A stretch of DNA of 38,317 bases, taken from contig JAGXTA010000156.1 in assembly GCA_018333535.1 (NCBI GenBank), positions 1 through 38,317 on the forward strand, in the 5' to 3' direction. The position numbers were made by a program, and so were the translations under genes. Source of the DNA: Deltaproteobacteria bacterium. GTDB lineage: Bacteria > Desulfobacterota > BSN033 > UBA1163. Positions 16,299 through 21,697 of this stretch are shown here, one piece after another (the first letter of the stretch is position 1; each line of letters starts with the position of its first letter). The notes under the pieces are model-generated. The model made no database searches, had not been told where the DNA came from, and saw only the letters and a program-made list of their open reading frames with translations.

Positions 16299-18148
16299 TT
16301 AATTTCCCAATACCGCTTTCAAGTCCTGATCCGGCGTTGAGATGAGTTGGATATTAAAGTTATCCACCAGCACTTTCAATACATTCGGTGAAACAAAGGC
16401 CGGAAGTGATGGGCCTAACTTAATGTTCTTTATACCCAGATAGAGAAGGGTGAGAAGAATGGCCACGGCCTTCTGTTCGTACCAGGAAAGGATCAGAGAA
16501 AGGGGCAGGTCATTGACGCCCACGTTGAAGGCCTTGGACAAGGCTACGGCAATCTGAACGGCAGAGTAGGCATCGTTGCACTGGCCTATGTCTAAGAGCC
16601 TCGGGATGCCGCCAATATTCCCAAGATCTTTATCAAAGAATCGGAATTTGCCACAGGCTAAAGTAAGAACAACACAGTCCTTTGGGATTTTTTCTACGAA
16701 TTCGGTGTAATAGTTCCGGCCAGCCTTTGCACCATCGCAACCGCCTACTAGGAAGAAGTGCCGGATGGCTTTTCCTTTTACTGCCTCAATTACCTTGTCT
16801 GCAACGCTCATGACCGTATTTCTTGCAAAGCCGACCGTGACGGAGCGGCCACTTTTATCTTCCGTAAAACCAGGCATGGCCAGGGCCTTATCAATGACGG
16901 GTTTGAAGTTTCGATCCGAGGTATGGGGTATCCCCGGCCATCCGACAGTGCCACTCGTGAAGACATTCCCTTTGTAAGTATCTCTGGGCTTCTGGAGACA
17001 GTTGGTGGTCATCAGGATGGCTCCAGGAAAATCGGCGAATTCCTTGGCCTGATTCTGCCAGGCTGTCCCATAATGGCCATAAAAATGGGCGTACTTCTTC
17101 AATCCTGGATATCCATGAGTAGGAAGCATTTCACCGTGGGTATAAATGAACCTTAACATTGCAAAAGATTTAGTCAAAACGGACATGGGTGAACCGTTCG
17201 TAAAGGCTTCGGGGCGAACCTTTTAGCGAATAAGCACACACATCCCAAGTCCTTGCCGGAGTTCACATTAGGTGAGGTCTACCGTTTCCCTTAACATGTC
17301 AACTTAATCGCCGTCAGAAGCCTTGAAGAGCGGTTTACCCGTGGCCGTTTTTGCAACCGTAAGGTGAAGATACCCTTGCCTTCGGTCTGCTTGAGGAGTT
17401 CCTCCAGATCCCTGAGATCATGGCCTGAAACCAGGATGGCCTTTCCCTTTTTGGTTCCGAGGGGAACCTGGGTAGGAACGGGATGCCCATAGGTCCCACT
17501 ATTGCCAGCATCGAGAAGCTCCATGGCCCTGAGATTGATCTCGCCGCACTTGAGGACGAGCCCTACCCAGTCGTTCAAGGACAGGTCCTTTCTCAGGGTT
17601 GCAGCGAGACCTTCGTGAATGAAGGCATAGACCTTATCATCCTCCTGCCCAAGAATCTGGGCATGATCTGCATAGGCAGCAACTCCCTTAAGGCCAAAGA
17701 GCAAGATATGTTGGAGAGATAAGATATCCGGATCGACAGTAGAATCGGATTTGAGCCCCACTGGTTCTCCCTGTTTTACCAGTTCCTGTACGTTGGCTGC
17801 TGGTCTAAACGTAGCCGAGCCTTCAGGAAAATCGACCTTTCCTTTTGCAGTCCTTACTTTTTCTTTCAAATTATCCCTCAGGGTCACACACCGCTGAATC
17901 ATTTGAACAAAGCGGGCCGGATCGAAATTGACATTTGTTAACGTGGAAAAGACGGCCTCGACCGTAAAAATGTTTACTTCCCGTTCGGTGACACCCACTT
18001 TCCGACCTTCTACCGCATACAAAGACAATCCTTTCAGTGCGTAAATAAGAAGATCCTGAAGGGTTGCTACGTCCGGTTCCTTCCCACAAATACCGATCTT
18101 TGTACATCCTTCGCCTTTTGCTGTTTGCTCACACTGGTAACAGAACAT
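16299..18148 (-). pseudogene. hcp: Hybrid cluster protein gene split by a MITE-like insertion
   Basis: Hcp carries a hybrid Fe-S-O cluster and acts in nitrosative-stress defence (NO reductase or S-nitrosylase; older assay name hydroxylamine reductase). The N-terminal piece has C3, C6, C15 and C21 (Cx2Cx8Cx5C, strict-anaerobe type) and the GTYGHPVP motif. The C-terminal piece holds the remaining cluster ligands in YTHGEMLP, TTNCLQKP, VGGCDG, LACGKF, IGQCNDAY and SWYEQK. The two pieces lie in different frames. Removing 214 bp (17151-17364) and one copy of the flanking TTCA joins them in frame as GKGIFIYTHGEMLP and gives 543 residues, the normal Hcp length. No other damage is seen, so the insertion looks recent. 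An AGGAGG site precedes the ATG. Confidence 0.93.
17151..17364. mobile_element. 214-bp MITE-like element inserted in hcp
   Basis: Both ends begin CCTTA-N3-TTGCAAAA when read inward. The arms continue as imperfect inverted repeats for about 60 bases on one side (17151-17210) and 48 on the other (17317-17364). They share ACGG, GGGT, AACCG and AAGGCTTC blocks in order, with one indel of about 13 bases. A 4-bp direct repeat, TGAA on the plus strand (17147-17150 and 17365-17368), flanks it as a target-site duplication. The element encodes nothing obvious, so it must have been moved by a transposase elsewhere. Confidence 0.88.
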
Positions 18149-18754: not shown

Positions 18755-20011
18755 TTAAATCATCTGGATGAAGAGCATCAGGGTGAAGCCGATCAGGACG
18801 ATCGTGGTTGTCCAGGCGATGAGGTTGAAGATGGGGCCATTGGTGTGCTGCATCATCAGCTTTTTGTCGTTGATGAGCAGGAGGATGAAGATGAGGATGA
18901 AGGGGAGGACCACGCCATTGATGACCTGCGAGAAATACATAATCGGGATGAGCGGTAGATCCGGGTAGAGGATGATCCCCGCCCCTAAAAAGATGATCAG
19001 GGAATAGATCCCATAGAACTGTGGGGCTTCCATAAACTTCTTGTCAATACCCACCTCCCAGCCCAGACCTTCGCAGATGAGATAGGTTGTGGAAAGAGGA
19101 AGGATCGAGGCCGCAAAGAGGGAGGCATTGACCAGCCCGAAGGCGAAGAGATAGGTGCAGTATTTTCCCGCCAGGGGCGCCAGGGAGAGAGCTGCATCCT
19201 TTGCGGTTTCGATTCTCACCCCGGTTTTGAAGAGGGTCTCCGCACAGACGAGGATGATGAAGAAGGCGACGATGTGGACGACGATCGATCCCATGACCAC
19301 ATCGAACCGTGCGAACTTATATTCCTCTATCTTGATTCCTTTTTCAACAATAGAGGCCTGGAGATAGAACTGCATCCAGGGAGCAATGGTCGTTCCTACG
19401 AGACCGATCACCATGGCCATCTCAGAAGGCTGAAGGTTCAATTGGGGGTTTAAGAATTGTTCGACCACATGGTTCCAATCCGGCTTCACGATGATGCCCG
19501 TGATGATGTAGGAGATGTAAAAAACGCAGGCGACCAGAAAAGCTTTCTCCACCGACTTATAAGTCCCCTTGACGACCATCCACCAGACGAGAAATGCGCT
19601 AAGCGGGACGGAGACGAATTTGTCGACCCCGAAGATTTCCATTCCTGCGGCCACGCCAGCAAAGTTGGAGATGGCATTGCCCATGTTGGTCAGAAACATG
19701 GCGATCATCAAATAGAAGGTGATCTTGGCGCCAAATTTTTCACGGATCAGGTCCGAAAGCCCTTTTCCGGTCACCACTCCCATCCGGGCGCACATCTCCT
19801 GGATCACGATCAGGACGATCATGATGGGAATCAAAGACCAGATAAACTTGAGCCCGAATTGTGCGCCGGCAAGGGAGTAAGTGGTGATGCCGCCGGCATC
19901 GTTATCCACATTGGAGGTAATGATGCCCGGCCCCATCAGAATGAAGAAGAGGCCGACCGTCCTCCATAGGGACCGCTTTGAGCTTGAAATCCATTGGGTG
20001 TAATTGGTCAT
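18755..20011 (-). CDS. Nramp-related metal transporter, probably Mg2+-type (NRMT-like)
   Basis: The protein (418 residues from ATG 20011) has 11 or so hydrophobic segments and the Nramp fold signature GPG...AGAQFG in TM1. The metal site is not that of Mn2+/Fe2+ Nramps: the TM1 motif DPGN reads DAGG, keeping the Asp but losing the Asn, and in TM6 the MPH motif reads APW, losing the selectivity methionine. Nramp-related magnesium transporters (NRMTs) are known to lack the methionine, so Mg2+ is the best guess for the ion. An upstream in-frame TTG (20044) lies at the edge of a repeat and is rejected as the start. The gene follows one for a soluble MgtE-like sensor protein on the same strand. Confidence 0.88.
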   Translation of the reverse strand: MTNYTQWISSSKRSLWRTVGLFFILMGPGIITSNVDNDAGGITTYSLAGAQFGLKFIWSLIPIMIVLIVIQEMCARMGVVTGKGLSDLIREKFGAKITFYLMIAMFLTNMGNAISNFAGVAAGMEIFGVDKFVSVPLSAFLVWWMVVKGTYKSVEKAFLVACVFYISYIITGIIVKPDWNHVVEQFLNPQLNLQPSEMAMVIGLVGTTIAPWMQFYLQASIVEKGIKIEEYKFARFDVVMGSIVVHIVAFFIILVCAETLFKTGVRIETAKDAALSLAPLAGKYCTYLFAFGLVNASLFAASILPLSTTYLICEGLGWEVGIDKKFMEAPQFYGIYSLIIFLGAGIILYPDLPLIPIMYFSQVINGVVLPFILIFILLLINDKKLMMQHTNGPIFNLIAWTTTIVLIGFTLMLFIQMI

Positions 20012-20039
20012 GGTTATTTCGTCAAAATCTATGAAAAAT

Positions 20040-20219
20040 TCCAATCACCAAATTCCAATCCCGCCAGGGCGGGACAAATAAGTTCCAATATTTCGAATAA
20101 CCAATCATCAAAAAAATCATTGGAATTTGGATATTGGTTATTATTTGGTTATTGGCCTGCCTGCGCGAAGTCCCGCCCTGCGGGACGAAGGCAGGTGCTT
20201 GGTTATTGGTGTTTTAAGG
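20040..20219. repeat. TTGGTTATT / AATAACCAA hairpin repeat
   Basis: The left arm has TTCCAATCACCAAATTCC and CGAATAACCAATCATC; the right arm has GGAATTTGGATATTGGTTAT and further TTGGTTATT words. Two small perfect stems (TCCCGCC-AG-GGCGGGA near 20060 and GTCCCGC-CCT-GCGGGAC near 20170) sit inside. It separates the Mg2+ sensor gene from its transporter gene. Related words occur at 21480-21510, 21600-21655 and 35338-35365. Confidence 0.75.
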
Positions 20220-21470
20220 TTATCCGGCATCCGGCGCAAGCACATCGAGAACGCTTCGAAAACTGATCACGCCTTTCAAATGGTTTTCATCGTCCAGGAC
20301 GGGCAAGGCCCTGAATCCATACTTGGCGAAGGCGTCCACCACCTCATTTTGATCCTCGTCCAGTTTGACGCTCACCACCCTCGGAGTCTGGATTTCGGAG
20401 AGAGACTGCTGGGAATGGGCCGTGAGAAGGTCTCGAATGCTGATCACACCCTGAAGCGCTTCCTCCTCATCCACCACATAGATGTAATCGATGATATCCA
20501 GATTCGGAGCTTCCAATTTTAACCGAGAAATAGCCGCCTCCACCGTGATCTCCGGTGTCAGGCTGAGATAAGCTGTAGTCATCAACCCTCCGGCCGACTC
20601 ATCAGGATGGACGAGCAGTTCCCGCACGTCTTCGGCCCTCTCCTGTTCCATCCCTTCAAGGATTTCTTCAGCCCTCTCCTCAGTGAGATCACCCAGAAGA
20701 TCAGCCGCATCGCTGGGCGACATCTCTTCCACGATATCCGACGCTTTCTCCAGGGGAATGGTTTCGATCAGGGCCTTCTGAATCTTCGGATCAATCTCCT
20801 CGAGGGTCTCTGCGGCTGTTTCGGGATCCAGAACATCGAAGATCGCAGATCGTTCCCGGCCGCTCAAGTCCTCGATGATATCCGCCAAATCCGCAGGATG
20901 AAGGTGGGACAGCTTCTTCTGAGAGACGCTGAGGTGGAGCAGGTCAGAGCCGGAGAGGAGTTGAACATATTTCCAGGAGATGAATTGATTGGGAAGCTTG
21001 TAGGAGAAGAGCCACTCGAGCACTCGATCGGTGGGCCTCTCCCATCCCACCCTCCTCATCAATCCCCGGAATCCCACATCGACATGAACCAGCCGCAACC
21101 GGGACTCAACCCTTAAGAAGTGGAGGTCGTTGACCCTCACCACCTTAGCGCCGTAGGTATCAACGATCTGTTTGTCCATCACCTCGTCTCGAAGCAGAAC
21201 CACGTCCTTTGTGGCAAGGAAGTTCGTAAGGTCGAGAAGGTCTTCTTCGGCAAGAGTGATCCGGGGTTCAACCTGAAGCATCTTCTCCCAGGGAAGATAA
21301 AACTTTTTTCTCCCTTTTGCCTGAATCACCACCCCGAGAATCATCGGATAGGGTTCTACCCTCTCGGCCACCAGATCGACGATCTTACCTGTCTTCTTTC
21401 CGGACAGAGAATAGACCTTCCGGTTCAAAAAATCACTGAAGAAATAAAATTGTCTGAGGTTTTGATCCAT
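20220..21470 (-). CDS. Soluble MgtE-type Mg2+-sensor protein: PRC-barrel, MgtE N domain and CBS pair, no channel
   Basis: Start set at ATG 21470 (MDQNLRQFYFF), because upstream codons run into a hairpin (21537-21558) and repeat sequence; this gives 416 residues. Two PRC-barrel-like segments (FLNRKVYSLSGKKTGKIVDL and a second around DKQIVDTYGAKVV) precede an MgtE N domain: helical repeats with LHPADLADIIEDL, MSPSDAADLLGDL and ESAGGLMTTAYLSL. Two CBS domains follow to the end. In MgtE channels this N-CBS part closes the pore when Mg2+ is abundant. The transmembrane domain is absent here. The next gene is an Nramp-related transporter, so this protein is well placed to gate it; that is inference. 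Confidence 0.85.
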   Translation of the reverse strand: MDQNLRQFYFFSDFLNRKVYSLSGKKTGKIVDLVAERVEPYPMILGVVIQAKGRKKFYLPWEKMLQVEPRITLAEEDLLDLTNFLATKDVVLLRDEVMDKQIVDTYGAKVVRVNDLHFLRVESRLRLVHVDVGFRGLMRRVGWERPTDRVLEWLFSYKLPNQFISWKYVQLLSGSDLLHLSVSQKKLSHLHPADLADIIEDLSGRERSAIFDVLDPETAAETLEEIDPKIQKALIETIPLEKASDIVEEMSPSDAADLLGDLTEERAEEILEGMEQERAEDVRELLVHPDESAGGLMTTAYLSLTPEITVEAAISRLKLEAPNLDIIDYIYVVDEEEALQGVISIRDLLTAHSQQSLSEIQTPRVVSVKLDEDQNEVVDAFAKYGFRALPVLDDENHLKGVISFRSVLDVLAPDAG

Positions 21471-21536
21471 AGGCTTGAGGGAAATGAAGCTCCAAGCACC
21501 AATCACCAAATTCCTTTTGTCCACCCCCACCTTCAT

Positions 21537-21558: not shown

Positions 21559-21697
21559 AGGTGAAATAGGGAAATTTCAAATATCTTTGGCTTGAATTTG
21601 GGTTGTTGAGTCATTGGTTATTATTTGGTTATGGGTGCTTGATGTTTGGTTATTATGGTCTTCTCAAACCACTTTATAACGATTTGCGTTGAGGGTG

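Follow-up and report, generated by a model that had tools for sequence, protein, structure and literature searches.

Nramp-related Mg2+ transporters (NRMT, or NrmT) have been described together with a partner gene. Shin et al. 2014 report that most NrmT genes adjoin a gene homologous to the N-terminal cytoplasmic domain of MgtE and that magnesium riboswitches occur in many of these operons; they suggest that the MgtE-like fragment may give feedback regulation or be a chaperone (PMC4072509). The partner was not required for Mg2+ rescue by NrmT: two members from C. acetobutylicum restored Mg2+ transport, reportedly without complementing Mn2+ transport, and the A. capsulatum transporter gave full rescue of Mn2+ uptake, with Mg2+ uptake restored only when Mg2+ was in the low millimolar range; it acted chiefly as an importer of Mn2+. 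Co-expression with the partner has been tried in a single published test, in a B. subtilis host, where the A. capsulatum partner gave no better rescue (PMC4072509). EleNRMT carries Mg2+ and Mn2+ without H+ coupling, and NRMTs are marked by DxxG in helix 1 and TxxA/T in helix 6, replacing DxxN-AxxM (PMC8806188). Uncoupled Mg2+ transport (EleNRMT) and Mg2+/ATP switching of the MgtE cytosolic domain are established in these relatives. A literature search for post-2014 work on the MgtE-like NRMT partner found none.

Here we analyse a 38,317-nucleotide stretch of deltaproteobacterial DNA (contig JAGXTA010000156.1; hereafter the window), in which a gene for a soluble MgtE-like protein, the sensor, is followed by an NRMT gene (Table 1). 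The reading we favour, with reasonable though not high confidence, is that the sensor directly gates the NRMT as feedback in a two-gene Mg2+ uptake unit.

Table 1. Positions of the features discussed, in coordinates of the window
Feature	Position	Strand	Remarks
NRMT transporter gene	18755-20011	-	418 aa; start ATG at 20011
Soluble MgtE-like sensor gene	20220-21470	-	416 aa; start ATG at 21470
PRC-barrel domain	21273..21449	-	sensor residues 8-66; Pfam PF05239, 30.3 bits
Second, PRC-like segment	20925..21215	-	sensor residues 86-182 (about)
MgtE_N domain	20598..20903	-	sensor residues 190-291; Pfam, 97 bits
CBS pair	20223..20597	-	sensor residues 292-416; two Pfam CBS, 73 bits
AT-rich repeat ATTGGTTATTATTTGGTTATTGG	20133-20155 and 21613-21635		on both sides of the sensor gene
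hcp (hybrid cluster protein, Prismane family)	16299-18148	-	two ORFs

The sensor stop and the transporter ATG are 208 nt apart. A second in-frame ATG of the sensor, at 21536, falls within repeat-like sequence, and a TTG at 20044 is a possible alternative start of the transporter. The AT-rich repeats that flank the sensor gene sit inside longer runs of CCAATAACCAA-like words. The break in the neighbouring hcp gene is a short out-of-frame stretch between EGKGI and YTHGEMLPTHGYP.

Domain build and ligand positions of the sensor

The sensor consists, in order, of a PRC barrel, a PRC-like segment, an MgtE_N superhelix and a CBS pair. The first domain exceeds the curated PRC cut-off of 21.2 bits, is the single PRC domain to do so, and is present in 73 of the 76 sensor orthologues. 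The second segment has no Pfam match; in a profile comparison it aligned with the first barrel in the same register over 34 columns (P 1e-4, probability 54%), and it is beta-rich in the AlphaFold model, so that a second PRC barrel is plausible. A structure search with the PRC half of the sensor gave an output dominated by CBS and MgtE matches. No segment of the protein reaches the Kyte-Doolittle value of 1.6 over 19 residues (maximum 1.13), and the plug helix of MgtE is absent, the C-terminal end falling ahead of its position. With 171.7 bits against TIGR00400, under the cut-off of 232.75, and with neither the transmembrane channel domain nor the plug helix of MgtE in its sequence, the sensor is not a full MgtE magnesium channel. 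The earlier note had described a soluble protein with two PRC segments, MgtE_N and CBS; the Pfam domains and the lack of a transmembrane segment agree with that description and its coordinates are exact, and the second PRC domain in it is likely.

The AlphaFold model of the sensor (pLDDT 90.7, pTM 0.63) superposes on the Mg2+-bound cytosolic domain of T. thermophilus MgtE (2yvy) over 238 residues (Z 23.7, 2.3 A). Ten residues are invariant among the 76 orthologues, and five of them (D104, N114, D115, D131 and R139) fall within the second PRC-like segment; conservation is lowest in the first barrel. Should docking on the transporter involve the PRC parts, the second segment would be the better candidate for that role, because it is conserved, unlike the first barrel.

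We placed the ligands of T. thermophilus MgtE on the sensor by alignment (PMC5882242, PMC5529423). In MgtE_N, the Mg7 ligand E59 is retained as E221 and the Mg6 ligand D95 as D257, the latter in 99 of 100 sensor orthologues. Half of Mg5 is kept (D250 = D409; D226 = G385) and Mg4 is gone (D91 = S253, D247 = S406), as are Mg2 and Mg3 together with the plug helix. Across the sensors the Mg4 pair D91/D247 reads D/D in 49, S/N or S/S in 41, D/A in 8 and P/D in 2, i.e., the two ligands change mostly together. Five ATP contacts, Y170, R187, D188, V207 and F227, are retained as Y329, R346, D347, V366 and F386, and one is changed (N203 = T362). Since Mg4, the plug helix and Mg2/Mg3 are missing, any gating by the sensor must use another interface than that of MgtE. 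The same genome also encodes a full-length MgtE (G000 C173:33973, L002) with Q at the Mg6 position and other ATP-site residues altered; judging from these positions, its own sensor may be degenerate.

Transporter identity and substrate

The gene that follows the sensor on the same strand encodes an Nramp-fold protein, as had been proposed: it scores 337 bits against Pfam Nramp and has eight hydrophobic segments by the Kyte-Doolittle criterion (1.6 over 19 residues). Helix 1 reads D38-A-G-G41, where Nramp has DPGN, and TM6 reads T207-T-I-A210-P-W212, where Nramp has MPH, which confirms both replacements pointed out before (DAGG and APW). The resulting ion site, D38xxG41 with T207xxA210, is the published NRMT signature. 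Both proton-pathway histidines of Nramp TM6b are also replaced (W212, L217). EleNRMT is the best match among solved structures, with 361 bits over residues 16-415, versus 85 bits at most for canonical Nramp/MntH structures. By these sequence features the transporter is an NRMT, with uncoupled Mg2+ transport predicted. Where EleNRMT has a TM3 Glu close to its ion site, the window transporter has N116, and Asn is also found at this position in about one quarter of the NRMTs of loci L001-L133.

No M-box riboswitch was found in the window or elsewhere in the genome. In nine loci of relatives an M-box precedes the sensor (L111, L112, L117, L120, L123, L124, L125, L128 (partial) and L133). These M-boxes occur in relatives of both Geobacter type and Firmicute type; they support the view that the ion regulated in this clade is Mg2+, and together with the NRMT ion site they speak for the earlier proposal of Mg2+ as the substrate.

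It is unlikely, in our estimate, that the pair serves for Mn2+, or for several divalent ions, with a sensor that answers to Mn2+. The full rescue of the Mn2+ defect and weak rescue of the Mg2+ defect by the A. capsulatum member (PMC4072509), the movement of Mn2+ by EleNRMT as well (PMC8806188), and the missing Mg4 ligands and half of Mg5 in the sensor would fit such a function. Against it stand the ion site DxxG-TxxA, the same as in EleNRMT, the M-boxes of the relatives, the two C. acetobutylicum members, which rescued Mg2+ and reportedly not Mn2+ transport (PMC4072509), and the fact that the partner never lies beside canonical Mn2+ Nramps.

Joint occurrence, specificity and exceptions

We surveyed 546 genomes of three phyla, counting a sensor as full-length if it included the PRC part or was truncated by a contig end; the E-value limits were permissive enough to catch full-length sensors, and very divergent ones could be missed. 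An NRMT is present in all 105 sensor-bearing genomes, and no genome with an NRMT at >=42% identity lacks a sensor. In the window's phylum (198 genomes), the 45 genomes with a full-length sensor are the same 45 that have an NRMT (>=33% identity); the other sensor matches there begin near residue 185 and are ordinary MgtE. One genome of 79% completeness (G005) has a divergent NRMT-like gene (DPSG/TTISPY) without a sensor. Of the 149 genomes in the Acidobacteria-type phylum, 41 carry the sensor, each of them together with an NRMT, and nine genomes with NRMT-like genes and no sensor hold only relatives at <=35% identity. In the Firmicutes-type phylum, 18 genomes with the sensor and one with a sensor split in two ORFs make up the 19 with an NRMT (>=47%). 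Fisher tests, which ignore relatedness, give P = 6e-44, 3e-28 and 6e-27 for the three phyla. A stronger argument than these values is the shared presence or absence within families: in about ten of them (for example f8, f11, f16, f19, f26, f31, f40, f41, f47 and f55) presence is patchy and concerns both genes together.

The arrangement recurs in well over 100 loci, far beyond chance, in three gene orders (sensor-NRMT, NRMT-sensor and convergent), and in G060, G097, G152 and the genome of L122 the two genes are both present though unlinked. The pairing is thus near-obligate across three bacterial phyla. The strength of this link is new; the pairing and the feedback hypothesis were both already published in 2014. 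In several genomes of the Acidobacteria type (L220-L226), a glycosyltransferase-like gene (PF13524 in L220) stands between sensor and NRMT.

The earlier note had made conserved co-occurrence its test beforehand, with normal Nramps for comparison, and the co-occurrence proved near-perfect and specific to Met-less NRMTs. No sensor lies within the 3-kb flanks of about 20 Nramp homologues, canonical ones and others. Four genomes (G364, G329, G212 and G294) have a sensor-linked Met-less NRMT and also a paralogue, at 29-33% identity, with the motifs DAGS/AVIMPW, in which Met is present, and these paralogues have no sensor in the available flanks. Two canonical Nramps (L039 7099-9234 and L040 2625-4562) carry a C-terminal universal stress protein domain, the former about 3 kb from a sensor-NRMT pair.

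Two extra sensors have no adjacent NRMT (L217 4484-7906 in G212 and L216 4571-5929 in G364), and one of them lies upstream of an amino-acid-permease-family gene; no consistent alternative transporter was found among the neighbours of orphan sensors. These extra copies would suit a sensor that sets the amount of NRMT or acts on other targets (folding, assembly, proteolysis, other transporters) in place of gating. Both genomes also have complete pairs, and no sampled genome that lacks an NRMT has a full-length sensor, so we judge this explanation as improbable as the Mn2+ one.

No natural sensor-NRMT fusion was found among the loci surveyed. The 1147-aa open frame of G551 (L190) lies in GC-rich DNA and is an overlapping frame; that of 840 aa in G329 (L162), reported as though the TAG were read as a residue, consists of a sensor, a TAG and an NRMT in one frame. 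A single TAG between a same-frame sensor and NRMT occurs in L162, L164, L156, L157, L161, L182 and L204. Same-frame pairs are not above chance (frames 54/44/40), and selected read-through was discarded as an explanation, the TAG excess fitting a AGGAGGTAG ribosome-binding site in the one case inspected. For the complex we modelled an artificial single chain of the orthologous L064 pair with the TAG read as Q, which implies no recoding claim. This chain gave a pTM of 0.70 with a disordered linker, a value without PAE or control, compared with 0.63 for the sensor alone and about 0.55 by our own estimate for two independent halves. The distance matrices of 125 sensor-NRMT pairs show a correlation of r 0.62, against 0.15 for the best of 500 permutations, which we do not take as evidence of co-evolution, since shared ancestry alone explains it.

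Proposed feedback gating and comparison with known systems

The two families, the ion-site signature, the kept and lost sensor ligands, and the near-obligate co-occurrence are read from the sequences; we infer Mg2+ binding by the sensor, its dimerisation, its contact with the NRMT, inhibition as the sign of its action, and the docking surface. The proposed system would be a two-gene Mg2+ uptake unit of an NRMT and a trans-acting soluble sensor. The NRMT, as a facilitator of the LeuT/Nramp fold, would let hydrated Mg2+, and Mn2+ to some extent, follow the membrane potential with no coupling to H+, and the sensor would be a CBS-paired dimer. When cytosolic Mg2+ is replete, MgtE_N and CBS would close around Mg2+ at Mg6/Mg7 and the half Mg5, tuned by ATP; the closed sensor would then bind the cytosolic face of the NRMT, probably via the conserved second PRC-like segment, and lock the carrier. 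The full form of this proposal, in which an obligate soluble Mg2+/ATP sensor, of a kind also used by a channel but without a plug helix, gates an unrelated, uncoupled LeuT-fold carrier in trans via a PRC-like docking segment, is offered more tentatively than gating as such.

The reason for such feedback would be that NRMTs are uncoupled and need it as MgtE does: driven by the membrane potential, Mg2+ would fill the cell through an uncoupled carrier, and this electrical leak must be shut in a replete cell. By analogy with MgtE, an NRMT whose sensor is a separate protein is the most economical reading. Several points count against gating: NRMT transport needs no partner; co-expression of the A. 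capsulatum partner had no effect in B. subtilis, where the transporter rescued Mn2+ deficiency; and the plug helix, Mg2, Mg3 and Mg4, needed by MgtE for closure, are missing from the sensor in the alignment. The absence of natural fusions, and of an M-box in window and genome, counts against a gating unit. The earlier idea of a recruited MgtE sensor is partly supported and stands as to co-occurrence; it is not new, the pairing and the feedback idea dating from 2014, and with the plug helix and Mg2/Mg3 absent the sensor would have to work by an interface other than that of MgtE.

Slightly less probable than the two explanations discussed above is a partner that does not gate the NRMT but takes over the ion from it, as a chaperone or buffer for Mg2+ (or metal) in the cytosol, which is the alternative proposed by Shin et al. 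2014 (PMC4072509). The sensor is acidic (76 D/E vs 47 K/R), and a chaperone would explain the strict co-occurrence too; the domains that are kept, however, are built as a conformational switch that has both an ATP pocket and Mg2+ ligands bridging N and CBS domains. Free Mg2+ in cells is millimolar, a level at which a chaperone is hardly needed. A chance neighbourhood or operon hitch-hiking without a functional link, for which the 208-nt gap with its repeat-like sequence might speak, is very improbable and already contradicted by the surveys, in which the genes are co-present though unlinked, rearranged in order, and jointly present or absent within families.

Returning to feedback gating, the partner is likely a required NRMT subunit or regulator in nature, because the co-occurrence is near-perfect even where the genes are unlinked, and work on NRMTs that leaves the partner out may overlook half of the system. 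If the gating model is true, an exchangeable sensor gives feedback on two transport folds that share the problem of uncoupled Mg2+ entry.

The nearest described arrangements are the NrmT operons with an MgtE-like fragment (the Ca_c0685 operon and Acp2976/Acp2977), in which the same two families are adjacent, with an MgtE-domain gene beside the NRMT. The C. acetobutylicum sensor is split, whereas that of the window is one intact gene; the M-box, found in a subset of these operons and not required for membership, is absent here. A systematic co-occurrence survey, a description of the PRC parts and a ligand analysis are not part of the excerpted text of Shin et al. 2014 (PMC4072509). EleNRMT of Eggerthella lenta (PDB 7qia, 7qic, 7qji, 7qjj), the closest solved structure, shares with the window transporter the DxxG-TxxA site and a W where Nramp has the first TM6b His; the second His is N in EleNRMT and L217 here, and its TM3 Glu corresponds to N116. 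The excerpted text of that study makes no mention of a partner sensor (PMC8806188). With the cytosolic domain of T. thermophilus MgtE (PDB 2yvy, 5x9g) the sensor has in common Mg6, Mg7, half of Mg5 and most ATP contacts; unlike it, the sensor is a separate protein with no channel or plug helix, has lost Mg4, and carries an added N-terminal PRC domain and PRC-like segment.
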